DNA of 64,000 bases. It comes from Dillenia suffruticosa (taxonomy: Eukaryota > Streptophyta > Magnoliopsida > Dilleniales > Dilleniaceae). How positions within the stretch are numbered: position 1 is the stretch's first letter; each line of letters starts with the position of its first letter. This document shows, piece by piece, positions 12,200 through 62,945 of this stretch. Location of the stretch: positions 6,215,001 through 6,279,000 of the forward strand of contig JAVTVX010000027.1 in the NCBI GenBank assembly GCA_033439265.1, written 5' to 3'. The notes under the pieces were generated by a model. It saw nothing but the letters and a program-made list of their open reading frames with translations, had not been told where the DNA came from and did no database searches. A program made the position numbers and the translations under genes.

Positions 12200-13551
12200 C
12201 AGCTTTGAGTAAATGGTGGAATGGTACCGACATCCTCTCTCTCTCTCTCTCTCTCTACTTTGTGGCTTTATTATATGGGTTCTTCAGATCCGATCTTGGG
12301 ACGGTGCTGATTATTTAGGAAAAGGCATTGCGGTGCGTTGTAATACGAACACTTGGGTGTCCGTGTCTTTGTCTGTTTGACGTTGCTAAATTCAACAAAA
12401 AACTTTCATCATTTTTTCTCCCTAAAGTTGTTGGTTTGGAAGAATTCCAAATACCCGCATAATCACAAGTCTCCCCTTTCTTTTTTCCAGGTAAAATTTC
12501 CAATTTTCTTAAGTGGGTTTTGATCAGATTTTGCATTGATGCTGTTATTCAATGCATGTGTTAATGGTTACAGGTTTAGATCTGAGAGGTTCTTCAATGT
12601 AATTGAATTCTGCTCTGCTTCTTCTTCTTTATTTCCTTTAGTCCTTGCTTGATAGGACGATATAGTTTTCAACTCGAAATTATAAATTATTTTTTCTGGG
12701 TTTTCAAATTCTTGCCTTTAGAGCATATTTGGACGAATTGCTTTATTTTTGGGTTTGTTTTGTTCTTACTTGGGTGTTTACGATGTTTGAATGATGTGGT
12801 ATGTGGACTTCATTTGATGGTGCTTTTGATTAGTATTTTCTAACTTTTGTTTCTGGAATGCTGTATTTCATAGAAGAATTTATGGAATTTTAGATGTCTT
12901 CTTTTAGTTTTGGGTCAGATCTTCTGCATTTAGTATCACTTTTCTTTTTCCGAATGTTTATTGAGCCACCCAAACAAAAAACCGGGCACCATCGAAATTC
13001 TATCGGAGGACCTGTTCATTCTAGTTCAATGGAGCTGAACTAGCTTACACCCGTGCATTTTAGTATCAATTTGTTGTTAAATCTTGTCTAAGATCTTCTT
13101 GTCAAATATTATTTGGAACAATAATGAAGATTGATTTTTGGCGGAGTCTCAAAGAGTTGGCAACTGCCATTAAATTAAATTCTTCTTCTCGTTGTTGTTG
13201 GTGTTGTTATTTTATTATCAATTTACCATTAACTTTAATTTAATTTAATTTTTATTATTAATATTATTTTTTCTCTCTTCTCTCTCCTATGTTAGTCTCT
13301 CAAAATCCCAAAATTTGAGATTAAAGTTTAGTTTGTTATTGGTGTTGTTGTCAAATAGTTGGCAATTGCCATTAAATTCTCCTAACCTTTGAAAAGGAAT
13401 TCTCCTGCTGTATTTTCTTTAGATTAATGAGATCAAAGAAAGTGCTTCAATTAGAAGTGGTCTTTCTTTTTCTTGCTTAAGTTTCTCGCTTTTGCAATGT
13501 TTAGGGTTGTGGTTGAAGCATCTGTGGCAGTTGTGGTTTAGGATATCCATC
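12200..13551 (+). promoter_or_regulatory. inferred leader and 5'-UTR intron of the acidic-protein gene
   Basis: A (CT)n tract at 12234-12256, common in plant leaders, is followed by GC-richer sequence to about 12490. There TTTTCCAG is followed by GTAAAATTTC, a plausible 5' splice site. A pyrimidine-rich stretch ending TTGCAATGTTTAG (about 13492-13504) precedes the coding start and offers the 3' site. The roughly 1-kb T-rich interval between looks like a leader intron. Inferred from signals only; there is no transcript evidence. Confidence 0.4.
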
Positions 13552-15606
13552 ATGTTTAGGTTGTCACCTCGTAGAAACCAAAGATCAAAAGGGTTAAGAG
13601 TAAAGCATGCAGTACAAATATGTTTGCTTGTTGGTGTTTGCTTATGGCTGATTTACCAAGTCAAGCACTCCCATGACAAAAAAAGTTCATATGATGGAGC
13701 CTCTGCAAAGGTTTCTGAGAAAACACAGGAAGAAAGTGGGTACATGAAGCTAGGGAGGAAGGATCTCAAGCCTACGGGAGATACAGTGGTTAAAGATATG
13801 AGGCACAAGGAAGAGGATGAAGAAGAAGAGATCAAGCATGACCAAGAAGAAATAAAACCTGTGGAATCTGAGGAGATTGGAAATGGTGCTGGAGATGAGG
13901 AGAGACATGAGCAGGATCAGGAGAAAGCCCTTGAGGAATCTGAAGATACTGGAAATGGAGAGAAGGAAGAGAACAAAGAGAGTCAAAGTGAAAAAAAGAA
14001 GCCGGAGGAGGATAATGGAAAGGAACAAGAAGAGGTGCTTGAACGGAGCAGTGAAAATGAAAGGGAAAATAAGGGAAGTGAAAACAGCAAAGATCAGGAA
14101 AGTGTAGAGGGCAATGAAAAGATTAGTATTGAAGATTCGCATCTGGAGACCACGGGGCATGGAAGTGATGAAAGTTTAAATCAAGAGGGCAAACAAAGTG
14201 ACAATCAAAATGAAAACAAGGGAAGTGAAGAGAGCGAGGTTAAGGAAGGTGAGGAGAGCAATGAGAACAGAAGTTCAGAAAATTCAGGTGAAGAGACTAA
14301 AGAAAGTGCAGAAGTTAAAGAGAGTGAAGAGGGCAAGGAGAATAGAAGTTCAGAAAATTTAGGTGAAGAGACCAAAGAAAGTGCGGAAAATCTGAATCTA
14401 GAGAGTCAACAAAGTGAGACTGTGGAGATCAAACAAATGACAAGTGAAGACAACAAAGAGGAGAGTGACGGAAAGGAGAACGAAGGTGAAATGAGGGAGA
14501 ATGAAGGGAAAGAAGAGAGCCAAGATAACAATAGTGAAAAACAGAAAGATGATGTGGCTCAGCACGAGGGTTCAGGTTCATCAGAAAATCAGGCAGATGA
14601 AAGTGGGAAGACCAAGGAAGCAGAAAAAGAGGCACGCCAAGAGGAGAATAATACTTCTTATGAAGAAGTTAAAGAAACTCAAAGTATGGCTTCCGAAAAT
14701 GATGATGGGAATTCAAGGAACCCAAATGAGGAGGAACATTTGGAAAACAAACAAAGCAAAGAACCTGAGCAGGAAAATGTGGCCAATAGTTCTGGGGAGG
14801 GGATTGCTGAAAATAAATCACACACTAATGAGGGAGGAGCTAGTGAGACTGTTGAAAAGGACAATTCATCTGATGGGACCGCAAATGAAGAGAAGAGGGA
14901 CACCAATGCACCAGAAGTTCAAGATGGTTCTAATCCCAGTTTAGTGACCAGTGCAACAACAGAATCTACAGAACAGTCACAGGAGAACGAAAACTCAAAG
15001 ACCTCCAGTGAGGAAAATTCTTCATCCCAACAGAATGATACTGATACAACTTCAGAATCAACCCAAAACCAAACTGAGAAAAGTTCTGACTCAGGCTCTG
15101 AAGGACATCAATCTGCATTACAAAAGGAGGAGAACAAGCAGACAGAGACAACTCCAAACAGCGAACAGTCCAACGCATCAGAGAATGCAAAGGCAGAAAA
15201 TGAACCCAAAAATTCATCCACTGATGACTCAAGTGTATCAGTTGGACAATCAGGAATGGCTAAGGGTGAGATTCATTTAGCCACAAATGAGAACCATGAT
15301 GCAGATCAGGTCCAGACCTCAAATGGAAGTTCCGGAAATGAAGCAGCAGAACAAGATTCATCCTCTAACAATAGTGTCGAAAACAATTCCGAGGGTTCTT
15401 CTGCTTCTTCAACCCAGCAGGGAGAAAAAATTGCATTCACCGACACAACTAATGACCCAGATGTGAACCAGAAAGATTCAGTTGAAAATTCTGAACCTTC
15501 GATTCCACAAGATGGGAAAGAGCAACAAGATGGGAAAGAGCTACCTGTTGATTTAGAAACTCTTCGAAAAGCAGGTAACAATCAAGAAATAGCAACAGCA
15601 GAATGA
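13552..15606 (+). CDS. acidic Glu/Ser-rich single-pass membrane protein, function unknown
   Basis: The 684-residue frame starts MFRLSPRRNQRSKG at 13552. I prefer this start to the in-frame ATG at 13492, which lies across the likely 3' splice site. The sequence shows a short basic N-terminus and one hydrophobic segment (about residues 20-37, AVQICLLVGVCLWLIYQV). About 630 polar residues follow, dominated by Glu, Ser, Asn, Lys and Gln, with almost no hydrophobic runs. This suggests a type II or signal-anchored protein with a long disordered acidic tail. A 75-nt in-frame duplication near 14263 and 14338 repeats a block around RSSEN-GEETKESAE. Plant proteins of this kind are often annotated as dentin-sialophosphoprotein-like because of composition, which says nothing about function. 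The frame is uninterrupted and purine-rich on the coding strand. Confidence 0.85.
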   Translation: MFRLSPRRNQRSKGLRVKHAVQICLLVGVCLWLIYQVKHSHDKKSSYDGASAKVSEKTQEESGYMKLGRKDLKPTGDTVVKDMRHKEEDEEEEIKHDQEEIKPVESEEIGNGAGDEERHEQDQEKALEESEDTGNGEKEENKESQSEKKKPEEDNGKEQEEVLERSSENERENKGSENSKDQESVEGNEKISIEDSHLETTGHGSDESLNQEGKQSDNQNENKGSEESEVKEGEESNENRSSENSGEETKESAEVKESEEGKENRSSENLGEETKESAENLNLESQQSETVEIKQMTSEDNKEESDGKENEGEMRENEGKEESQDNNSEKQKDDVAQHEGSGSSENQADESGKTKEAEKEARQEENNTSYEEVKETQSMASENDDGNSRNPNEEEHLENKQSKEPEQENVANSSGEGIAENKSHTNEGGASETVEKDNSSDGTANEEKRDTNAPEVQDGSNPSLVTSATTESTEQSQENENSKTSSEENSSSQQNDTDTTSESTQNQTEKSSDSGSEGHQSALQKEENKQTETTPNSEQSNASENAKAENEPKNSSTDDSSVSVGQSGMAKGEIHLATNENHDADQVQTSNGSSGNEAAEQDSSSNNSVENNSEGSSASSTQQGEKIAFTDTTNDPDVNQKDSVENSEPSIPQDGKEQQDGKELPVDLETLRKAGNNQEIATAE

Positions 15607-15959: not shown

Positions 15960-17738
15960 CTATGGTTCCTTCTGTTGAGATCGGCTTCAAGCCCAATGGA
16001 TTTACCATTTTGATGTTTATACTAATTAATTTGACAAAATAATCAAGTTGGAAAAAAATGGCGCAATTTCATTAAATTATTGAGGTATATACTTCTAAAA
16101 AATTTGCTCAATCATTTATAAATCTTGAGAATTAATTTCTTAATGCATCAGGAAAGCTTTGAAGAATGTCAAACGAGATTTTCTCTAGTTTGGTTCTTCT
16201 CTGTTTCCTTAAAGCATATGAAATGTAAAGTGGCTAGCAACGAAGTCCAAATTTCTAGATTGGAAGTACAGGGTCTTAAATTATTTTTAAATGCAATAAT
16301 TTTGCCAACTCTTAGACTTGCACAATGAGGCAAGTGGAATGTGGTTTTTGTGGACGTTCACACCATCTTTGGCGCACACGAACTCACACCATTCTTTCTA
16401 TATTTTTCTTTTTTTCCTCACCGCCAAAATCCAGAGTCATACTTCCATTATATCGGTTCAAGCATCTTCGGAGACCTTTCTTTCTGTATCTGCTTACACG
16501 TATCTAAAGTGGTCCAGTTATACTTGCAACTACAATTGCACCGTAGAGATTTGTGTCCATTCAAAACAAAATTGAGCATCACTTGACAGCCTCCAACCAC
16601 AAACTAGGAATGAAAATCCTTGAGGACCATACCTGATTTAAATTCCTCCAACCTCCAGGATTGAAAGTGTGGGGGCGTCTGTGGAATGGCTCAAATCTCC
16701 AAATATCGCGGTCACTTGAACGACTTATGATAAACAAAGGTGAGAGCATCCATCCCTATCCAACCTTTCTCTCAAGTAACCTACCATATGACGGATGGTT
16801 CTCCCAGTTCAAGATCCTCGATTCTAAATAGTCACCCTCCCTGTTGCCAAGGAGAAAACAAGAATAGAGAGAACAAGTAAACTAAACTACCACAATGCAC
16901 AGACATCTCAGAAATAAAAACCAAACATGCTCAAATCTAAATACACTTGTCATGCCGATGCCTCTCCTGAACTGAAAGATGCAAATTGCCAAATGCTAGC
17001 ACCATTCAATGCAAATACTCAAACAATTTTCTTGATTTTTAGTAAGGCACAGCGTCACACACATCGCAGGTGGGAGTTGGCAAAATTTTTAAACAAACCC
17101 ACTTCTAGACTGACTCGAAATGGTGCCTGTCCTCTTCCAAGCCCAACTCTTCCATACAATTAGCATATATGATCAAGCGTCTAGCATAGATAGCAACTTG
17201 CCAATATATTGAAAGGAACAGAAAGCACATCAAGAGAAGCAAAGGCTACCAATATCTAGGATGGTCAAAGTTAACACTGGGGAAAAGATATGGAAACCAT
17301 TAGAGACTACATCAGCATGAAGCAGCACTACAAATAACTATAAGTGGTTCATTCCATCTAAAAACACTATTAACGCCATAGCTTCTCTTAGACAGTAACA
17401 CAAGAAAGGAGTTGATAGTTTCAAGTAAACACACAAATAGATCTCAACCAAAAAATTATAACAATAGCTAATCAGCAAAACCAGAAAATTCAGGTATTTG
17501 AATTATTTACATGAAGATAATAAGCTTGAATTCCACTAACTTTATTTGGTGCAAGAAAAGTCTGACAACAGGACGACAAAACACAAAATAAGTGGCTTGC
17601 TACATACTGCATTCAAAGGATCACGCAAAAGTCTCGAGAAATGTTTCAACCTCGATGCTGAGAGAAAGTTTTTCGAGCATCAATGGCAACAATTCAAGAA
17701 GGCTGAAGTCTTCCTACAAACATTTTCAACAGATTCCT
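15960..17738. other. intergenic DNA including the presumed COX6a 3' UTR
   Basis: No gene supported. The right part, next to 17738, should contain the 3' UTR of COX6a on the minus strand. A tRNA-like B-box resemblance (CAGTTCAAGATCC, about 16806-16818) hints at another old SINE but is too weak to call. Confidence 0.4.
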
Positions 17739-20700
17739 TCAGTGGTGCTTCTTTTCAAATAGGCCATCTGGACCTGCATATCACAGGGCAACATCATGCA
17801 TCTAGTCAAAAAGTAAAAAGACCTACCAGTTATAAATTGGCTCAGAAACAGAAATTCCACGAACCCAAACAATACCCTCCCCCGCCAAAAAAAATATATA
17901 TATTAATAATAAAATAAACAAAGAACCTATGTAACAGCAACACTTTCTGCACAGGTTGTAATCCTTTTCCAAGTTAACATATGCTTGATTTCAATAAGTA
18001 AAATTAACATGAATTAGAAAAAAATACATTATAGGGGGGATTTCACATAGTAACATAGGTTCCGAAATTAAACTAGACTATAAGTTGCTTTTGCAAAGAG
18101 TTAGGATCCAAAAGAGAAGTCACTTAACTAAGCGAACAGAACATGTCTGATGACAATTAACCATTTTACCAAGTGAAATGATGGAAAACAAAGAACGTAT
18201 TATGAATTTGCTTTCAGCAAGGTAACTGTATCAATATCGTTGAGTTCTCGTTTATAAGTACCATTTTTTTTAATTAGAGAATGTACCAGCATTAATACCA
18301 AAATCAAGGAGTAATCTATATTATTATATAGAGCAAACTCCACGGCTTGATATATTAATAGCCATATGACATTTTATCTGAACAAAAGCAACCACAGACC
18401 ACCCACTTTATCCATTGTTACCACTCCCACAAAATCTACCATCTTTTTCTTGAGCAGATAACCATTCCCTTCTTTCAAGTCTTTGTTTCATTTAAGGGGG
18501 AAAAAATGAAAACTTAGATATAATGGTATTGCAACAGCAAAGCAGCTGCGAGTGTCCTAAATATCCACAGGAAACCTGTGGTGGGCCCATAACCCACAGG
18601 TCACAGCATCGAAACCTGTCTTTGATACCAATAGAACTATCACGCCCTGAACCGAGGTCATGAGCAGCCGCCCGTTGCCCTGGATGTCGGCTCGATTTTC
18701 TAAAAAATTGGACAGAACCTCCCCATATTTTGGAGGTCTCCCATATATAAATCAACCTGTATATTGAATGATCATCCTGCCACCTGAATAAATAGGCCAA
18801 CCTGGCCTTACAACAATCAACCACATTCATATCATACCGATCAATCCGCACCGTACAAATCAGGACAACGCAAAACTATCACAACTACTAACAGTCCTAA
18901 CCACAGACCTCTTCTATCATGGCCATGCCCAACAAGGGCATGAGTAGCCACCACATCGAGCGGGTCTAAAATTTTACGCATGTGTATAACAAGTTTCCAA
19001 ATATGATGAAATGTGTACTAATTGAATGAATTATAAAGAATATATGATAAGGATGACGAAAAAAAAGATAAAGTATGCCCTAGGATACCCTAACATTGAT
19101 CTTAGAGGAAAGAATTGTTAGAATACAACTTAACCTAGTAAGTTCAAATCATAACACAAATCCTCATATATGTTTTGTGTTGCCATTGTAAACACATGGG
19201 TGGTGACCAAACGAAAGGAAGCACTTTCGACACTTGTGGTACTGGGTAGGAAGTGACTGACCCTCCTATATACAGTGAATGAGACTCTAATCTCATACAT
19301 GAAAAGTGAAACTTGATTTTTGTCAGTGTTTTCAACAAAACATACTTTTGATATGTATGACTCGTCGTGTGACACTAGATTTTGAATTTGTTTTGTGACT
19401 ATTGGAGTGTCGTTAACTCATGTTTTCTATGAATATACATCCATAAATTTGATTCAACTGAAATGATGACATGTTTTATGATTTTCACATGTTAAAATGA
19501 CCTAATATGGCATATTTATTGAGCACTATGGTTTCTATATCACTGATTTGGGACCGTGTGACCGTGGGATGACTGTTATGATATGATTTCGTCCCGAAAG
19601 GACGACCGCAGCTACGGGGGACGTTTGTTATGACGCCGAATATGCGTCTAGGTACACTTCGAGCGGAGGTACCCGCAAGCGTCCGGTATATGGGTATAGA
19701 CGTGGCCGATTGAACCCGCAAGGGAGAGGACGTGTGACGTCACTGTCTAGCACCGAGTGACATTATATACGTAATCTGATCAGTGTATGAATTAGGCTCG
19801 GTGAAACTCATGGCCATCGTCAGGGTAGACAACGACTTTTGAACATTTATGCATAATAAAACCTCTGATGCGCCTGTCATTGGTCACAGTCGATCTTTGC
19901 AAGCATCATATTCGGCTTGCTCTAAAAATACTTGATTTTAAAGGGATGCATATATGTTTGATACCGTAAGATGGATTAAATGATTTCAATTTTACCGAAC
20001 ATACCATGTTTTACTACGAAAAGTGAATTATTGTTTTCGAATAATCATGTTTGATACTCCAATGGTTCACACACACTATTTATGCTTGATATTGATCCCC
20101 TTACTCACTGAGTATCTCCCTTGATACTCACCCCTCCTTTCTTTTCTCAGACAGGGTTACTTTGATAGAGCCACGCATCGGGCTCTAGACGTCTTTTGTC
20201 GTGTATGTGGGAGACTTCCGAAATATGGAAAGGTTTTATCCGATTTTCTAGAAAACTGAGCCGACATCCAGGACAATGAGCGGCTGCTCATGACCCCGGT
20301 TCGAGGCGTGACAGTTCTATAAGTCTCCGCCATCAGCTCTGCGGACTCTATCCGCAATACCCTAAAGCTTCTCATATGTACTCTAGAGCTCTCTGATACG
20401 ATCGAACAAAATCGGCCTGATCTCAAATCTGGCTAGTAAGTCTACTTGATCATCACCAGTCAAACTGACTCCCAAAGCTCGGAGTCCTACTAAACAAGAA
20501 AGGTATGCATCCTCTATCGACTGTGAGGATAATGTTGACTTCCAGCTCAATACATCTGTCACAACATTCGCCTTACCCGGATGATAGTCAATAATGGAGT
20601 CGTAATCCTTGAGGAGTTTTAACCATCTCCTCTGTCTTAAATTCAGCTCCTTTTGGGTAAACAGATACTTCAAAGTTTTGTGATCTGTAAATACTCTGCA

Positions 20701-23700
20701 GGTCATCCCAAATAATATCGACATATCATCAACGCGAAAACTATGGCTGCCAACTCCAAATCATGTATCGGGTAGTTAACATCGTATTTCTTCAGCTGCC
20801 ACGAGGCATATGCAATAACCCGACTATCCTGTATCAGAACACAACCCAACCCCAGTCGGCTAACATCACTGTACACTGTGTATTTCCGACTGCTAGTGGG
20901 AAGGACTAAAATAGGAACAGAAGTCAATCGTTGGTTTGAGCCCTTGAAAGCTTGCTCACAACAGTCATCCCAAACAAGCTTGACCCCTTTCCGGGTCAAT
21001 CTATACAACAGAGCAGCTATCCAGGAAAATCTCTCTACAAATCTGCGATAATATCTAGCTAAACCGAGAAAACTACGGATCTCGATAACTATTTGTGGCT
21101 GCTCCCACTTCAATATAGCCTCAACTTCCGCGGATCAACATAAATACCCTCCGCGGAGACAATGTGCCCCAAAAATCATCTCTTAGCCAAAATTCACATT
21201 TCAATAATTTGGCATATAGCTGCTTCTCACGGAATATCTGCAATACCACCCGAAGGTGCTGAACATGATTTTCATCACTCTGTGAATACACCAAGATAGA
21301 CTTAATCCGATGGTGGTAATGGGATGAGAAAAAGATGAAAATGCATGGGGCCATTGGATCAAGTAGTTGGGGGACAAAACATTTAATAGAAACCTTGGGT
21401 TGTGTGGTGTGAGAAGACAAAAAGCCAAATTGTGTGGCTTGTTTATTCCATTTGCTTGCCAAACCATAAGAGCCAAGGAAGAAACACAAGAAGTTCTCTA
21501 TTATTCTTCCTCATAGCCGTGGACTGCTAAGGTAAGATCTTCAAATCTTTCTACATATTACCCGAATTTTATTTTATAGATCAAAATTGGAATTTCCCAA
21601 TTCCAACCCCGATTGAGGAACTTGTGGTCAATTCTCGAGAATGATACGAGATTTGATTTTAAAAAAAAACCTAGATCGTCCATAACTAGGGTTGCATCAC
21701 ATTTACATCATCGTATGCGCATCATATAACCTCTTAAGTGACACATATTCTATATTATGTTTATAGAGGCTCGTCGATGATATTGAGGAAATCATTTTTA
21801 TGTGCCTCGAGATTCATGCCGGAAGTGACATACCCTCCGGTATACTGTGAGTGAGATCTATTATATTATGTGTCTGATACACAATATCATATTTTAAAAT
21901 GTTTTCTGACGCAAATATGATTTAATGAATATGTGATGTGAAATTTTTAATAAATTATGAAATATTTTTGTGAATTCATGGAGTATCCACAAACATATTT
22001 ATACGTGTTGTATATGCATCCAAACGAGTTTTAAAATACGAAGCCGTGCCATTGCATTTGATTTATACATGTTTTATGAAATCATTCTTGTGGAAATAAT
22101 TGACATTGTTTGAAAAATGTGGCATGACACGTGATTGATTTGATAATGATATTTTACATGGGTCGATGGCCCTAACATGTGATAATAATAACTTTGTGAT
22201 GAATAAATCTCATTCCGTAGCTACGAAGGATGCATGTGTAGGGTGATCTATATTTGCACCCGATACGCTTCTGCAGAAGGTATCCCACGTGACATCGGAA
22301 AATGGTAAATGTATTGTGATTCGACACGGTACTAGTCAAGTTAAACCCATAAGGAGGACGGCTATGGTGCGCCGTAGCCTAGCACCTGATGAGATCCGTT
22401 GCCAACGTCGGGGTAGAGAGCTTTTCTAACCTATTGCATACAAAACCCCCGATGCGCCTGTCATTGGTCGCGGTCGACCCTTGCCAGAACTGATTTTGAC
22501 ACACTCTATTCTAGCATGATTTGATGACATGGATGCATAAATGTTTGAAATGTATGTAAAAAGAATGATTCATGATAAATTGAGTATTATATACGATTTC
22601 TTATAATATGTGAAATTTTTGAGAATTTTAATACTCCATTTTTTACCGACACATTAAACACATGATATATACCCTCTCACTTATTGAATATTTTCCTTGA
22701 TACTCACCCCTCATTTCCCGTTGTGTACAGAGATAGCTATAGTGGGACGCGTTGAGACTTATCAGCGTATGAGGCTTTTGTTGAAGATCGAGGCTATTGA
22801 TTAGGTACTCGATATGATATTGAGAAGAATTTGCCCATGAAATTGTATATTTATGTATTGGGATTGTAGATAGACCATTGTGTATAAAGAGGATGGCTGT
22901 ATGTAAATTTATGTGTATTTTATTGAAACTCTCAATTCTATTCTATTGGATTGAGGCATGATTTGTACTATTGTGTACATTTACTTTGGAAAACATGTCA
23001 TGTTCTAGAAGTGTCCTCTAGATTCGCTCGGTGCCACCTCTAAATCACAGAAGGGGTAACTGGCGACTGTTCATGCCTTTGATGGGAGCATGACAGTAGA
23101 GGTCTGGTATAAGACTGTTGTTAGCCTTACGTTATCCTGCATGGTTGACAAGGATTGGATGATATGAGGAGATTGTTGATTGTGGCTAAGCTAGCCTATG
23201 TATATAGATATGTGGCAAGTCGATATATGGTATTTGAAGACTTCCGACTTATGGGAAGATTCTACTCATTTCGTTATAGAAAGTCAACATCCGCGATAAC
23301 AGGCGGCTGTTCACGGCTCCGGTTCAGGGTTTGTTTATCCATCTATGAATGACACTAACAAAATCACAAGCACAACTTCTACAAACAATTCAATGTTTAT
23401 ACTCCTTAATCTTCCACATGCAAACACCGGACTAAACCTAAGTGGTATAGTTCAGGTATCTTCTCCTACATTACCATCTATACAGTAATGTTTCAATTGC
23501 TAGCAAGAAAACCTAAAAACTAATCTATTTGGCTTTTTGTAACTCCATCCCTGTCTAACTGTTTCCCCTCTTGCGATCTGAACAACATGAGATAACTGAA
23601 TACCACATGGCAACCCCCCCCCCAAAAAAAAGAAACTAACATTTTTTGAGTAAGAAAGATTATATAATTGCACAGATAATAGAAAAACTCAAATAAAAGA

Positions 23701-26014
23701 ACTTAACAGAGTCCATAATGAACTTTGAACAGCATTGTGAGTTTTTTTTTTTTTTTTGGGATTTTATACCAGCTAAAAACAACCCTATTAAGGATTTTAT
23801 CTTTTTCATGTCTGTTTCTAGTTTCAATCACATAAAGTCCAGGTTTTCACACCAAGAAGCCTTCTGTGCTGAGGAAAGTAATCATTGTCTTCACACCATT
23901 TAAACACAAAATACAAAAAAGACCCAAAGAATCTACATCTTGATGCCTGACAAGATACAAGTTTCTTGTGATATCCTACGAGTCAATTGGCTATCCAACT
24001 TTAAGTTGCCAAAATATTCCCACGAGTGTCAACATTGAAGTTTAGCTTATCCCCTTATGGAATTCTTCTGTAAGAGCCAGCCACACCTTCCCCCATCACT
24101 CTTATAAAACAGACACTATCCTCTCACGATGATGTTTCCTTAGCACTTGTCATATTTAACTGCAATCCCATTCCTTACTCAAATTTTTCCCTTTTGGATA
24201 GCGGACACCGTAACTTGCACACAGATTGTCATCCTAGCTTCTTTTGTTTTCAAAATTTTTTCCTCAAATCATCCATAGGTCCACTAGCCACAAGCATATT
24301 CTCCTCAACTGCAAATGGATGTTGTGCCCCACCCTCCAGAAATCCTTACTTCCCCATCAGCAAACTCATCTATCTAAGCCACTTAAATCCACCCACAGGT
24401 GCTAAGATTTATTTGGAAATATATTTCTAAAATCATGTCATAGACAATAATGCAAACTCATACAATGAATAACAAAGGAAGAAAAAAAAAAAGACACAAA
24501 TGGAATAAGATTTACAAATAATAAAAGAATCCAAAATGTCTTCATGCTTGTTCAGTTTACACTAGAATAAAAGTAGAAGCAAGCAGCACAAAAGTATTTG
24601 CTAGCATTCAACATGGAAGGCCACATCTTGCTTACAAGCCAACCAGGGATATTTTATAACCATCTCATAGATCATTTAGATACTGCATAGCTAAATATGT
24701 TGGCAAGAAATGATAACCCTCCAAGAATTAAAAATAGTGTGTCCAGGAGAAGTGTAATTTGTAAGTAAGTTATAAATGCTCCGTTACCACCTGGAGTTCA
24801 CAGATTCAAAATCATGGACCCTAAACCACTTCACTTCAGGAGCGGAAAACATCTAATCCTCCCTATGCTCAAGAATGGCAGGATTCTCTGCCCTAGTGGA
24901 AGATCTTTTCTTGCCTCATCAGTATCAGCTTGCAACAAGCCAACTAAGTGGACAGCCCCAACCAAGACCATCTTTATGATGTCAGCACCCATAGTCTAAT
25001 TCCTATATTATTTCACAAAGGTGATGCTTTCTCCCATTATCATGAAGGAATCCTCTCACTCTTTTATAGCTCTTCAAACCAAGATTCACCACCGCATGAA
25101 CCACATCAGACATCTACAATACTGCTAATACTACCAAGCACAGACACAAGTCACGTGACATAAATATGGTGTCACGTCAAAGTGACCAAAAATTTTTAAA
25201 CCACTGTAAGTTACAATGTGTCATATCACGAAAATAACGACTTTTTACAAGAGTCTATGCAACATAGTGCTATGCCATTTTGAATACTCAACTTTTTCCC
25301 CAATTGAGTCTAGCCCACTCAGAATAAAATCATTGAAAACCAATTTCAGCAATCAACGGGATAACACAATGAACCAAACAAATCCTCTTGCTTCTAATGA
25401 TAAACAGTAGGAAAAACACCCAGAAAAGAATTATGTAAAGCCAATTACAAATAATAAGTCAACACAATCCCAGAAACCCAAAAAAAAAATAGAAAACGTA
25501 ATCATCACATAGAAACACATACCCCATGGAAATTCCTTGTTACGGATGTGCAGGTATGGATACGGCTACAAAAACAATTCACAAATTCATAATCAGAAAT
25601 TCAATTTCATGATATCAAAAAATTAGGGAAAATCAAGAAGAAAAGAAACTCAAATGGATAAGGGTAGTCTCACAGGAGGCTCTTCATTGTGAGGATGACC
25701 TCTTGCCAAGTTGTAAATAGCCAAAACAGTGCAAGTCACAATTCCAGCATACGTAATTTTCTCCCATTTCGCCGCCTCACCTGATTCAGTAAACCAATCA
25801 CAGGATACAATCAGTCGTCCAAGTCGAAAACCCTAATTTAAAAAATCGAAATCGAAAAACGAAAATGATGCGGCATAATTCGATTAATAATCTTACGGAT
25901 CTCCTCTTCGGGATTGGCAGAAGCGGAGAAGTTTCTCTTCTGCTGAGCCTGAGATGCCCTGACGCCGCCGCGAAGCGCCGTTCGAAGACCAGATCTCATC
26001 ATGGCCATCGCCAT
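17739..26014 (-). CDS. COX6A: cytochrome c oxidase subunit 6a, mitochondrial
   Basis: COX6a is a small nuclear-encoded inner-membrane subunit of respiratory complex IV. I assembled the minus-strand gene from splice signals: exon 1 25897-26014, exon 2 25674-25780, exon 3 25523-25565, exon 4 17739-17773. All introns have GT-AG ends and phases fit (1, 0, 1), giving 303 nt, or 100 residues plus stop, the plant family's size. The protein has an Arg/Ala-rich presequence with the cleavage-like KRNFSASA, the conserved [12 protein letters not shown] entering one membrane helix (about residues 45-62), then [26 protein letters not shown] and the ending EKKHH. These blocks match plant COX6a. The first ATG (26014) is followed by in-frame Met3, Met5 and Met6. 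Intron 3 spans 7.7 kb and holds retroelement fossils; intron 2 is about 108 nt. The remote exon 4 completes the conserved FPWGPDGLFE block, so I am confident of it. Confidence 0.9.
18633..18960 (-). repeat. LTR-like fragment of a Ty3/gypsy fossil
   Basis: The minus-strand copy of the shared LTR end (GCGGCTGCTCATGACC-type block) runs directly into a tRNA-Met-like primer-binding site. This marks it as the 3' border of an LTR. It is diverged and incomplete, and the upper boundary is approximate. Confidence 0.6.
19380..20325 (+). repeat. LTR-like block A of a Ty3/gypsy fossil
   Basis: Related over its length to block B (21790-23100) in the same orientation. Shared stretches include GATGCGCCTGTCATTGGTC, CTTGATACTCACCCCTC and the terminal CTGTTCATG/CTGCTCATG block. 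Its end abuts the pol remnant, which reads the other way. Divergence indicates great age. Confidence 0.6.
20326..21500 (-). mobile_element. Ty3/gypsy pol remnant (reverse transcriptase and RNase H)
   Basis: Minus-strand pieces resemble, in order, the end of the reverse transcriptase and the RNase H region of plant Ty3/gypsy elements. Recognisable blocks include [13 protein letters not shown] and the RNase H-type [17 protein letters not shown]. Integrase is not seen. The piece is a broken fossil with several interruptions. Confidence 0.85.
21790..23100 (+). repeat. LTR-like block B of a Ty3/gypsy fossil
   Basis: Partner of block A in the same orientation, with shared landmarks in the same order. 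A further copy of the LTR-end motif (GGCGGCTGTTCACGGC, about 23300) lies just beyond, so more than one copy may be present. Boundaries are approximate and the copy is degraded. Confidence 0.55.
24775..24840 (+). repeat. possible tRNA-derived SINE head
   Basis: GGAGTTCACAGATTCAAAATC (split here as a B-box-like core, GATTCAAAATC) follows a possible A-box region. It resembles the tRNA-related head of plant SINEs and lies within COX6a intron 3. Weak evidence. Confidence 0.2.
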
Positions 26015-42931: not shown

Positions 42932-45440
<2,509 letters not shown>

Positions 45441-46752: not shown

Positions 46753-49700
46753 TTAGAGAATTTTGACTACCCTTCTCATGGAGGGTCTGTTCATCGGAAA
46801 TGAAGAAGTAAAAAGAAGAGCCAGGTTCAACACCTTCTCAACCTCTTGATAGTTGCAGGTAGATTGGTTCATCCTTGGATCAATAAGCTGGCCAACATCC
46901 ACTTGATTGCACGTGGTAATGTTGCCATTTAATTATGGTGATGATAATGCAACGTCAGTTATCCACTTTACCATGTCCTTGTTCTCGCCAAAAGACGAGT
47001 CATTTGGTCTCTTTCCCGTAACTAGTTCCATTAGGACCACACAAAAGCTATAGACATCACTCGTCTCAGTTACCATGAGCGTGTAGGCTTACTCTGTCAA
47101 ATTCAACACATTCCACATTCCACATGACCAGCCTGATCAGTTAAAGTCGGTGAAAAAGCCAAACCAAATAGCGGAAGGGAAATAGTACAAACAAGGAAAC
47201 AAGGTTCTTGCCGATCTTATATGACCAGGTTCAATAGACAAAACTATCAAACTTGGCCATACATAACACATATGATTAATCAACTACAGCATCTCGACCT
47301 TTATAATGAATATAAAAAGCTGCGGTAGCTAATTTCTTAATCAGAAATACATAGATGTAACATAGTTAACTCCATCAGCAGCCCATTCTAAATGTTGTCC
47401 ACTGTTGCCATTCACCTTTAGGATATAAATGAAATAAGGGTAACAATTTGGATGATAAAATGTCAAAGGGTAATATTTTGTGGATTAAAATTTTACTCCC
47501 TTAGGACTTATGCTTTCTTTCCGTGCATGGATTAGGAGAAATTTTTCCTCCTTGAATTATGAAAAACAGGAAAAAGAAAATTAAAAATTTTTCAAACTCA
47601 CTCCCATTCTCAAGATTGTAGGTGCCAAATCTACCCTCTTGGTTCTCGAGGCTGATGTGAGTAGACATAGATGACGATCGCAGAGTGACTCATAGAGGTG
47701 ATCCGCCAACAAGTTTCACGTGAGTAAAATTAGGTGGTTATTCAAGTATGGCAACAACAATGATGATTCTCGCCAGCAACATTTTTATGGCCTTTTTCCC
47801 TCCCTTCATCCCATCCCTTACTAGGTTAACAATTACCTGCACTTTGGGGGTAAAATATTACTCCACCTTAAATTTTAAGGAGTACAATTATTTATCACAG
47901 TTAATAAAAATTTTTGGGGAGTAATACTTCACCCATTTACCCTCCTACTACACTTCTTAATCAAAAACCAGCAAAGGGTGTCTAGTGGTATACACGGACA
48001 GGCCACCAAGCATGATCACGAAGCTCACTATAGCCCTTATTATTTCTGTTTATCGAAGGTGGTTGTCAAAGGCTATTGCATTTGCAGCCAAATGATTGTT
48101 GTAAGGATGTGGTCAAGCAAAGTACGCATCAGAGGAGCCTTAAACCATCTACGGATGCAGCGCAAATTTGACTGGGTAATGTGACAATACCAACAGCATC
48201 AAGCAAGTGACAATATGATTCTTGGTCGATACACATGATTTTGCAACAAGTGAGAGAATCACATACGAAAAATTAAACTACTTATTAAGGGGGGGGGGGG
48301 AGAAAAAGCCACACGCGCGCGCGCACACGAGCACACGCACGCTCACTCGCAAAAAACGGCTCACCAGGTGCGATGTATCCATAAGAACCAGCGACTCCTG
48401 ACATGAGAACATCAAAGTCAGCAACCTTAAGACAGAAATCCCCAACAAGCAATATATTGTTCGACTTTACATCCCTACGCACAATTGCAGGCACACAATC
48501 ATGATGCAGATAAGCTAATCCTTGTGCTGCTCCAACTGCAATATTGAACCTTCGCTGCCAATCCAACAGAACACCACCCTTCTCTCCATGCCAAACATCA
48601 CCTAAACTCCCATTCTCCATATATTCATAAACCAACACTCTGCAATCCTCGCCACAAATACCCAACAATAACTTCACTATGTTGTAATGTCTAATTGTCC
48701 CCAATGTCTCTACCTCAGAACTAAACGCTGCATCCATTTCTGGATTTTTATTACCTCCCCATAGCCTCTTTGCCGCCCCAATCTGACCTGTCTTGAGATT
48801 CACCTTATAAACCTGACCAGACCCTCCAGACCCTATCAGATTCTCCTCGGTCAACGAATTCCCAATGGCATCTTCATTGAAATCAACCCTTTGAAAACTG
48901 GTTGCCTTCCATGGACCGTTTAGTTTACTCTTGAAAAACTTCGACTTGGCATTGGAGAACCAGATAATTGAGCAACAGATAAGGAAAACAACAGTGCTTG
49001 ATATTGCAATCAAGTAAGTGTTTCTGGATTTAGCTTTTGAACGAGGCTTGAAGGGCTTCAAATCATACACAAATTAGGGTTTCCCATAAGATTAGAGATG
49101 AAGTAGCACCATCAAAACCTGTTGGAACTTTGCCTTCAAGCCTATTATTGGAAACATTGAACTTATTGAGCTTCAACTTCGTTAATTCCACCGGACTTTC
49201 ACGAGAAAATAGATTGTTAGAAAGATCAAGATACATTAAAACCGGTAAATTTCCGAACTCAGCTGGAATTTCACCAGAAAATTGATTGCTTGATAAATTC
49301 AATTCAGTCAAATCACTCCACAAGCTCACATTACTAACAAATTTCCCAGAAAACTTGTTTTCTTGAAGATCAAGTTTCTGCAAATTCTCCGATTCGGAAA
49401 GACATAACGGAATTTCACCAGAAAACTGATTTCTATTCCCATCAAAAACTACAGGATGATACAATTCACAAATCTCTTTGGCAATTTCACCGGAGAAATC
49501 ACAATCAGGGATCAGCAACTGTGATAAATTACGAGCTCCAGAAATTGAGGAAGGAATTGAACCTTCAAATCTATTACCACTCAACTGCAGAAACCAAAGC
49601 TCAGACAAACCCCAAAATCTCAACGGAATTTCACCAGACAATTTATTATTGAAGATTCTAACGTAACTAAGAGAATCACATTCTGCATATGAATTAGGTA

Positions 49701-50400
49701 TAGTAACTGAAAATCTGTTGTTGAAAGTGATTAGTTTCTGAAGCTTCTTCCTAGAACAAAGATGTTCCAGAAATTCACCGGTGAAATTGTTCGTTGAAAC
49801 ATCGAATTCTTCCAAATCCGACCACAAACCTATATTTCCCGGTAATTTACCGGAGAAAATGTTGTTGAAGAGTTTCAATTGAACCAGATTCGGATTCAAA
49901 GCAAGAACATCCGGGATTTCACCTTCAAAGTAATTATCATTTAAGTTAAGCGAAATCAAAGAAAGCCTGGCGAGGCTTTCCAGCAATCCACTGGAGAATC
50001 TGTTCTGCGAAACATCAAATTGACGCAAGTTCGTTAAATTTCCCAAACTCTCCGGTAATTCTCCGGTCAATTTGTTCGAATACAGCTCGATTTGCTCAAC
50101 ACTTATCAATCCACCAACACTGTACAGAATTCTCCGGAGAGAAAGTTGTACGCGAGATCGAGATTCTTCAGACAAATCAATTGTCCAATAGAAATCGGAA
50201 TTTCTCCGATGAGATTCGAATACGAAAGCCAAAGATTCACAAGCTTCGTCAAATTTCCGATTTCTGAAGGTATTTTTACCAGACTTGAACGGATTAAAAG
50301 CGAGTTCGAAATGTGTTAACTCAGTCAAATTCGTCAAGAACTCAGGAATAGGACGGCCAAGAAGATTCGAGTTGAGCTTCAAAACTCTTGGTTCTTGTAA
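46753..50400 (-). pseudogene. HSL2-like: HAESA-LIKE2-type LRR receptor kinase pseudogene
   Basis: HSL2 is a peptide-sensing LRR receptor kinase controlling floral-organ abscission and cell separation. The minus-strand remnant keeps about fifteen leucine-rich repeats (50400-49080; e.g. LYSNKLTGELPESLGNLTNL), a membrane helix (YLIAISSTVVFLICCSIIWF) and most of the kinase. The family's usual intron (48364-47094, GT-AG) after GSYGYIAP is retained, so this is not a processed copy. Exon 2 (47093-46753) holds [20 protein letters not shown] and SSFPMNRPSMRRVVKIL. Lesions: frame shifts near 50272, 50120 and 49075, in-frame stops at about 47089 and 46934, HRD altered to RRD, DFG to DFD followed by a gap in the activation segment, and SFGVV to SFCVV. 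The first LRRs and signal peptide are absent. The AAKRLW Lys is kept. Confidence 0.92.
48311..48329. repeat. alternating CA/CG tract with G10 run nearby
   Basis: An alternating purine-pyrimidine run of about 19 bases inside the pseudogene intron, some 35 bases from its 5' splice site, with ten G at about 48290-48299. Such DNA can adopt the Z form and is mutable. Confidence 0.7.
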
Positions 50401-61587: not shown

Positions 61588-62945
61588 TTTTTTTTTTTTG
61601 GTAACGAAAGAAAACAACAGCTTGCACCGCAAACCCAACCCAAAAGGCATACTCGCAGAGGAATTTCTTCCTTGCCTTAGGACTTTGATTCCCTCAGCAT
61701 CCTCCTTCAGAATGGGGATCAAAGCTGGAGGAGGGTGCGGGAAATCTTTGAACCTTTGAATCAGCGAATAACCAAGGGATGCCATGAAATCTGTACAACG
61801 GTTTCCTTCCCTAAATGTGTGGTGCACGACAACAACATTGACCTGTTGAATGAGTAATTTTCACTCTTCCACAATCATGCTAAGAGGATTATCTTTGACC
61901 ACGCCTCTTCTCAACATTTGAGCAACCAGCAAGAGTGGACTTCCAACTTGATGCCACACAAGTTCGTATTTCTAACCATCCTTAAACTCTCTCTCACCCC
62001 CCATAACTCCGCAACAGGAACAGAAAAATCTCCAACATTGACTAAGAAACCAGCAATCCATTCTCCTCTGTCATCCCTAAGGACTGCTCCTGCTGCAGCT
62101 TGACCGATAGTTTTGGACACTGATCCATTAGTGTTGAGTTTCAGAATTCCTCCATCCGGAGGCTTCCATCCAACCCAATTGATGGTTCTATCACTCCTGA
62201 TCTTCTCCTTGATGGTTGCAGAAAACTGCAATGCAGAGCTGCATGCCCATCTAGCAGTCTGTATGGGTGGGAAGTCTCCTTACGGTGAACAAAATTGCAC
62301 CTGCTCTTCCATATAATCCACAAGGTGGCTAAGAATTTGCAATTATCCAAAGCGAAAGAACCAAAAATATAGCCCTTGCTACCAGCTTTAACCCATTCTA
62401 CAATGTTCTCTTCCCAAAAGCCTCTACATCTTTCCACCCCTGGAAAAACTAAACACCAGACTTCCCTGGCCACATAGCAATCTCTCAAACAATGAGCAAT
62501 GGTTTCCTCCAGTCCCTTACAACGAAGGCAGTCAGCGTCTAAGGAAAAGTGTCTTCTCTGTCTCTCGGCATTGGTCATGATCTTGTTGCAAGCCACCAGC
62601 CACAGAAAAAATCTGATTCTTTCATAACAAACAACCTTCCACACCCAACTCCAGTCACTGGCAGAGCTCCTACTTCTGAGCCTCGAAACCTGGATGAGAC
62701 TATAAGCTGAAGCTGCTGAGAAGGTCCCATCCACATTACCCTGCCAATAAAAGTTGTCAGAACTGTTATTAGCCTCTGGGATGATAATGCTTCTGATTTC
62801 CGCCACCTTGCTAAAGGGGAGCATTCTCTCTGGGTCCACAGTTTTCCACTCTTTTTTGGCATCAATGAAGTGCCCCACCTTCAGGTTAGCCTCTTCACTG
62901 TTGACTGTGGCCAAAGCATGATTTAGTAAAGGATCCTTTCCCACC
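61588..62945 (-). mobile_element. 5'-truncated LINE (L1 type) with poly(A)
   Basis: On the minus strand the piece encodes the 3' end of a plant L1-type LINE ORF2. First is the zinc-binding RT-associated region (FFLWLVACNKIMTN, then CLRCKGLEETIAHCLRDC), then an RNase H-like domain (LKLNTNGSVSKTIGQ, AGAVLRDDRGEWIAGF, VAELWGVRESLRMV) and its last block, FREGNRCTDFMASLG. A poly(A) tail at 61600-61588 closes it. The reverse transcriptase proper is missing, as in usual 5' truncation. A frame change lies near 62200, between the zinc and RNase H regions, and another near 61850. The RNase H first Asp is Asn and the later Asp is His (LEVHS), so this domain looks dead. A clean target duplication is not seen. 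Confidence 0.85.

Follow-up and report, generated by a model that had tools for sequence, protein, structure and literature searches.

Introns expanded by transposable elements are well known. In the available text of three sources, a grapevine survey describes introns enlarged by LTR elements (PMC3058033), small internal exons of 1-15 nt (microexons) are reported to be missing from plant annotations (PMC8831610), and the Arabidopsis COX6a gene is given as AT4G37830 (PMC5877523). Here we describe a COX6a gene in a 64-kb stretch of Dillenia suffruticosa DNA, analysed at its full length and hereafter called the window. Compared with a plant COX6a of known structure (7jro_f), the predicted protein has no notable difference; the window gene has a last intron of 7.7 kb. 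Similarly to the grapevine introns (PMC3058033), this intron appears to have grown by sequence of which LTR-retroelement remains form a part. Unlike the cases in the available text of that survey (PMC3058033), it has a block-free paralogue, from which a base length of about 3 kb seems likely. The locus also resembles the microexons described in the accessible part of PMC8831610 in that a short coding segment is absent from gene models; those microexons are internal, whereas the short coding part in Dillenia lies in a likely longer terminal exon with a 3' UTR. Our high-confidence reading of the locus is a four-exon COX6a gene in which the 7.7-kb last intron includes 4.75 kb of retroelement debris; before this likely insertion, the intron would already have measured about 3 kb.

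Results

A predicted four-exon COX6a gene with a distant last exon

The gene is located on the minus strand and is predicted to encode an ordinary mitochondrial cytochrome c oxidase subunit 6a (COX6a) in four exons (Table 1). Its coding segments add up to 303 nt (118+107+43+35), corresponding to 100 codons and a stop, and the last ten codons lie 7.7 kb away from the remaining coding segments. The predicted protein aligned end to end with PDB chain 7jro_f, which we take to be Vigna radiata COX6a (E 3.8e-44), and the two share the PWGPDGLFE ending; the conserved C-terminal ending of plant COX6a is present in the four-exon product. Pfam COX6A (PF02046) matched residues 38-90 of the predicted protein with 27.7 bits against a cut-off of 25. 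A whole-genome search with the same Pfam family gave no match and detected none of 14 controls, and is uninformative either way. From homology only, we infer that the protein would be imported into mitochondria and assembled into complex IV. The sequence-only reading had proposed a COX6a gene of four coding segments with fitting splice phases and a final segment 7.7 kb downstream. All three points were borne out: the intron borders are GT-AG, phases 1, 0 and 1 give an intact 100-aa frame that matches its homologue from end to end, and intron 3 measures 7749 nt. Splicing would link 25523 to 17773; the conserved GPDGLFE ending and a 3' UTR would both come from the final exon.

Table 1. Positions of the COX6a gene features in the window and of the paralogous exons on contig C12.
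Feature	Position	Strand	Remarks
COX6a coding exon 1	25897..26014	-	118 nt from ATG; 90% identity to C12 paralogue
Intron 1	25781..25896	-	116 nt, phase 1, GT-AG
COX6a coding exon 2	25674..25780	-	107 nt
Intron 2	25566..25673	-	108 nt, phase 0, GT-AG
COX6a coding exon 3	25523..25565	-	43 nt; 3' border within the Gly codon of PWG
Intron 3	17774..25522	-	7749 nt, phase 1, donor GTATGT, acceptor ATATGCAG; predicted from sequence
Last exon, coding part	17739..17773	-	35 nt: remainder of the shared Gly codon, C-terminal residues, stop
Likely 3' UTR and polyadenylation region	17418..17738	-	AATAAA and paralogue identity; transcript end inferred
Retroelement block	18582..23331	.	4750 nt; no counterpart in C12 intron 3; borders to about 30 nt
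Decayed pol fragments in ORFs	20383..21489	-	RNase H domains and weak reverse transcriptase match
LTR-like high-copy piece	19800..20150	.	genome copy search
Intron-3 stretch matching the P0001 tail	24862..25080	-	24938-24862, weak piece 25080-25027; out of frame
C12 COX6a exons (positions on C12)	6145019-6144902, 6144784-6144678, 6144568-6144526, 6141353-6141319	-	phases as in the window copy

The pattern AGGNCCNGAYGGNYTNTTY, comprising the acceptor and the codons for PDGLF, occurs a single time on the two strands of the 64 kb, at 17775-17757 of the minus strand, and was found in 0 of 100 dinucleotide shuffles; the last coding segment is therefore not a chance match. The pattern recurs in the paralogue on contig C12, 3172 nt behind its exon 3. 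Read-through beyond exon 3 yields MCFYVMITF..., which is unrelated to the conserved ending. Between the two copies, 33 of the 35 coding nucleotides of the last exon are identical (94.3%), as are all of the first 35 nt past the stop. The 3' flank is 87% identical to that of the paralogue over 17419-17738 and about 66% below 17418, and an AATAAA is present at 17546-17541, 193 nt past the stop. A terminal microexon is limited to about 51 nt as a whole exon, whereas the conserved flank and the AATAAA predict more than 200 nt here. Thus the "35-nt last exon" of the sequence-only reading has to be corrected: 35 nt is the length of the coding part alone, and the exon as a whole is probably not small, with a likely 3' UTR containing the AATAAA behind that part.

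A paralogue with a shorter last intron

A protein search of the 596-Mb genome (37 contigs) gave seven matches, namely exons 1-3 in the window, exons 1-3 on C12, and a weak match on C30 with two stops and an E value of 5.4. The introns of the C12 gene measure 117, 109 and 3172 nt, and its last exon is intact, ending in GPDGLFETKHH. Outside 18582-23331, intron 3 of the window copy can be aligned to that of C12 with 85% identity (K2P 0.167, 2852 aligned columns); subtracting the block from the window intron leaves 2999 nt. Because the two introns can be aligned outside the block, a long last intron is common to both copies, and retroelements likely enlarged the one in the window, a loss from C12 being less likely. 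The intron was likely about 3 kb long before the insertion, judging from this comparison. We also considered whether intron 3 contains a conserved functional element and rejected this: identity is 75-89% per 100 aligned columns throughout, with no stretch clearly above the exons or the 3' flank. An Rfam scan of the window returned no family at the gathering score, and hence no match to a described RNA family in intron 3. The reading frame is unbroken in both copies, which differ at 14 residue-changing codons (15 nt) versus 11 synonymous nucleotide changes; because of this ratio, constraint may be relaxed on one of them.

The gene for the cysteine desulfurase NFS1 is found on both COX6a-bearing contigs. 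The NFS1 in the window shares 98% and 96% identity with two Dillenia turbinata proteins, and a copy of 94% identity is found some 15 kb away from COX6a on C12. The two D. turbinata NFS1 records are on contigs of 21,980,876 and 23,501,000 nt, equal in size to those of two D. turbinata COX6a records discussed below (P0001 and P0005). The species of the window is, on this evidence, likely closely related to D. turbinata. The two COX6a copies likely arose, as the shared neighbour suggests, by duplication of a block that also held NFS1. Near-neighbour locus tags of COX6a and NFS1, on contigs of equal size, were also seen in Cinchona (ACH5RR_013928/013930), Reevesia (Repub10bG0123500/0123700) and Lonicera (LguiA_014220/014222), which suggests an old COX6a-NFS1 microsynteny in distant plants; in the window this neighbourhood covers 4425-26014.

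Besides these genes, the window contains a 704-aa ORF between NFS1 and COX6a (13492-15606, plus strand) that is very rich in Glu, Ser and Asn and has no Pfam match. On the minus strand, two ORFs at 42932-44011 match the tubulin C-terminal and GTPase domains and are probably exons of one tubulin gene; overlapping ORFs in different frames at 48285-50382, with a kinase domain and leucine-rich repeats, are possibly a broken receptor kinase gene; and an ORF at 62141-62944 has the zinc-binding reverse-transcriptase domain PF13966.

Retroelement remains in intron 3

A repeat block lies inside intron 3 and is missing from the paralogous intron, as expected of an intron expanded by transposable elements; apart from some 21 columns of stray alignment, MAFFT found no C12 counterpart to it. 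RNase H domains PF17919 and PF17917 scored above their cut-offs in ORFs of 21489-20383 (minus), and the reverse transcriptase domain PF00078 scored 18.2 bits, below its cut-off of 29.6. These pol fragments appear to derive from a Ty3-like element. The search with the 19800-20150 piece gave 3133 first-look candidates, and the 40 that were scored comprise the window itself and 39 others at 88-90% identity. The retroelement remains expected in the intron by the sequence-only reading are confirmed by the RNase H domains and this high-copy LTR-like piece. Its description of the intron as retroelement-filled holds for 4750 of the 7749 nt, the other part being a roughly 3-kb intron in common with the paralogue.

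Repeat pieces within the block are just 71-83% identical to one another and no convincing target-site duplication was found at the block borders, both of which argue against a single intact LTR retrotransposon; the scanned ORFs, which hold only RNase H pieces and the weak reverse transcriptase match, argue against an intact LTR element. The relatives of the 19800-20150 piece (88-90%) are closer to it than is the piece within the block taken as its partner, and several old insertions of related elements would fit this pattern better than one element, as these comparisons suggest.

The block might instead have been lost from the C12 copy, the long intron being the older state. Divergence among the block repeats exceeds that between the two introns, no convincing target-site duplication marks a gain in the window copy, and the C12 site opposite the block holds 23 unmatched nt, all of which favour such a loss. 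A near-precise loss of 4.7 kb would be an unusual event and counts against it, and the relatives of the LTR-like piece elsewhere in the genome point to separate insertions, not one very old one. We consider the loss unlikely and prefer insertion into the window copy.

The retroelement block could also have disabled the window copy, with transcripts stopping short within the intron and COX6a being supplied by the C12 copy only. The size of the repeat block (4750 nt within a 7.7-kb intron) and the second intact copy on C12 would be in line with this, but the reading frame, the splice-site dinucleotides and the last exon of the window copy are all intact, and the coding part of that exon is almost the same as in the paralogue. 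LTR-enlarged plant introns are moreover described in the available text of the grapevine survey (PMC3058033). We consider this possibility very unlikely.

C-terminal endings in database records

The homologue search found 358 proteins; our counts cover the 120 listed. The canonical PWGxxGLF ending is present in 118 of these 120, and the two records lacking it are both from D. turbinata. P0005, labelled partial, stops at FPW, which is the end of exon 3 in the window copy, and P0001 carries 40 foreign residues after PWG. Up to PWG, P0001 is identical to the window copy at 83 of 90 residues and to the C12 copy at 78 of 90; P0005 matches the C12 copy at 84 of 89 and the window copy at 75 of 89. 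Since P0001 is nearest to the window copy and P0005 to the C12 copy, the duplication is likely older than the split of the window species and D. turbinata. Gene prediction most likely missed the distant last exon in both D. turbinata copies. The wrong endings do not need retroelements, because the record closest to the block-free C12 copy is affected too. A wrong C-terminus in databases, anticipated from the sequence alone, was seen in both listed D. turbinata records; the annotation risk does not depend on the insertion, given the wrong ending of P0005.

The P0001 tail can be aligned to intron 3 of both copies, in two reading frames in each, and within the genome the region 24850-25200 has no match beyond itself and the paralogue. 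That this tail represents a genuine alternative last exon within intron 3, giving a COX6a isoform without GPDGLFE, is barely credible despite the alignment of its 40 residues to both introns: the frame is broken in both copies, with the window 11 nt shorter than C12 at the break; the tail is in no other protein at E values up to 1, among proteins of 0.55-1.75 times the length of P0001 that share short words with it; and the stretch is conserved no better than the remaining intron (82-89% per 100 columns). A last exon missed by gene prediction remains our preferred explanation of both records. Elsewhere among the homologues, P0046 (Juglans) and P0082 (Ziziphus) carry additional residues close to the exon 1/2 junction and P0006 (Fraxinus) has a repeated KITYLGIATCTILAVVNLS segment; these odd inserts are likely gene-model errors. 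Among the papers listed by a literature search, none dealt with a D. turbinata nuclear genome or with plant COX6a intron structure.

Discussion

The biology of this gene is ordinary, and the point is a modest and practical one of annotation. A fuller reading, which we regard as a long shot and quite unlikely, is that of a natural COX6a pair, one copy with a retroelement-filled and the other with a block-free last intron, in which the block-bearing copy may differ in expression, owing to heterochromatin or early polyadenylation within its intron 3, and in which both D. turbinata C-termini are mis-stated publicly. The locus offers a concrete case: both listed copies of a gene in a public plant annotation lack a conserved protein ending, the length of the last intron being the likely cause, and the duplicated copy in a related genome allows the missing ending to be recovered.
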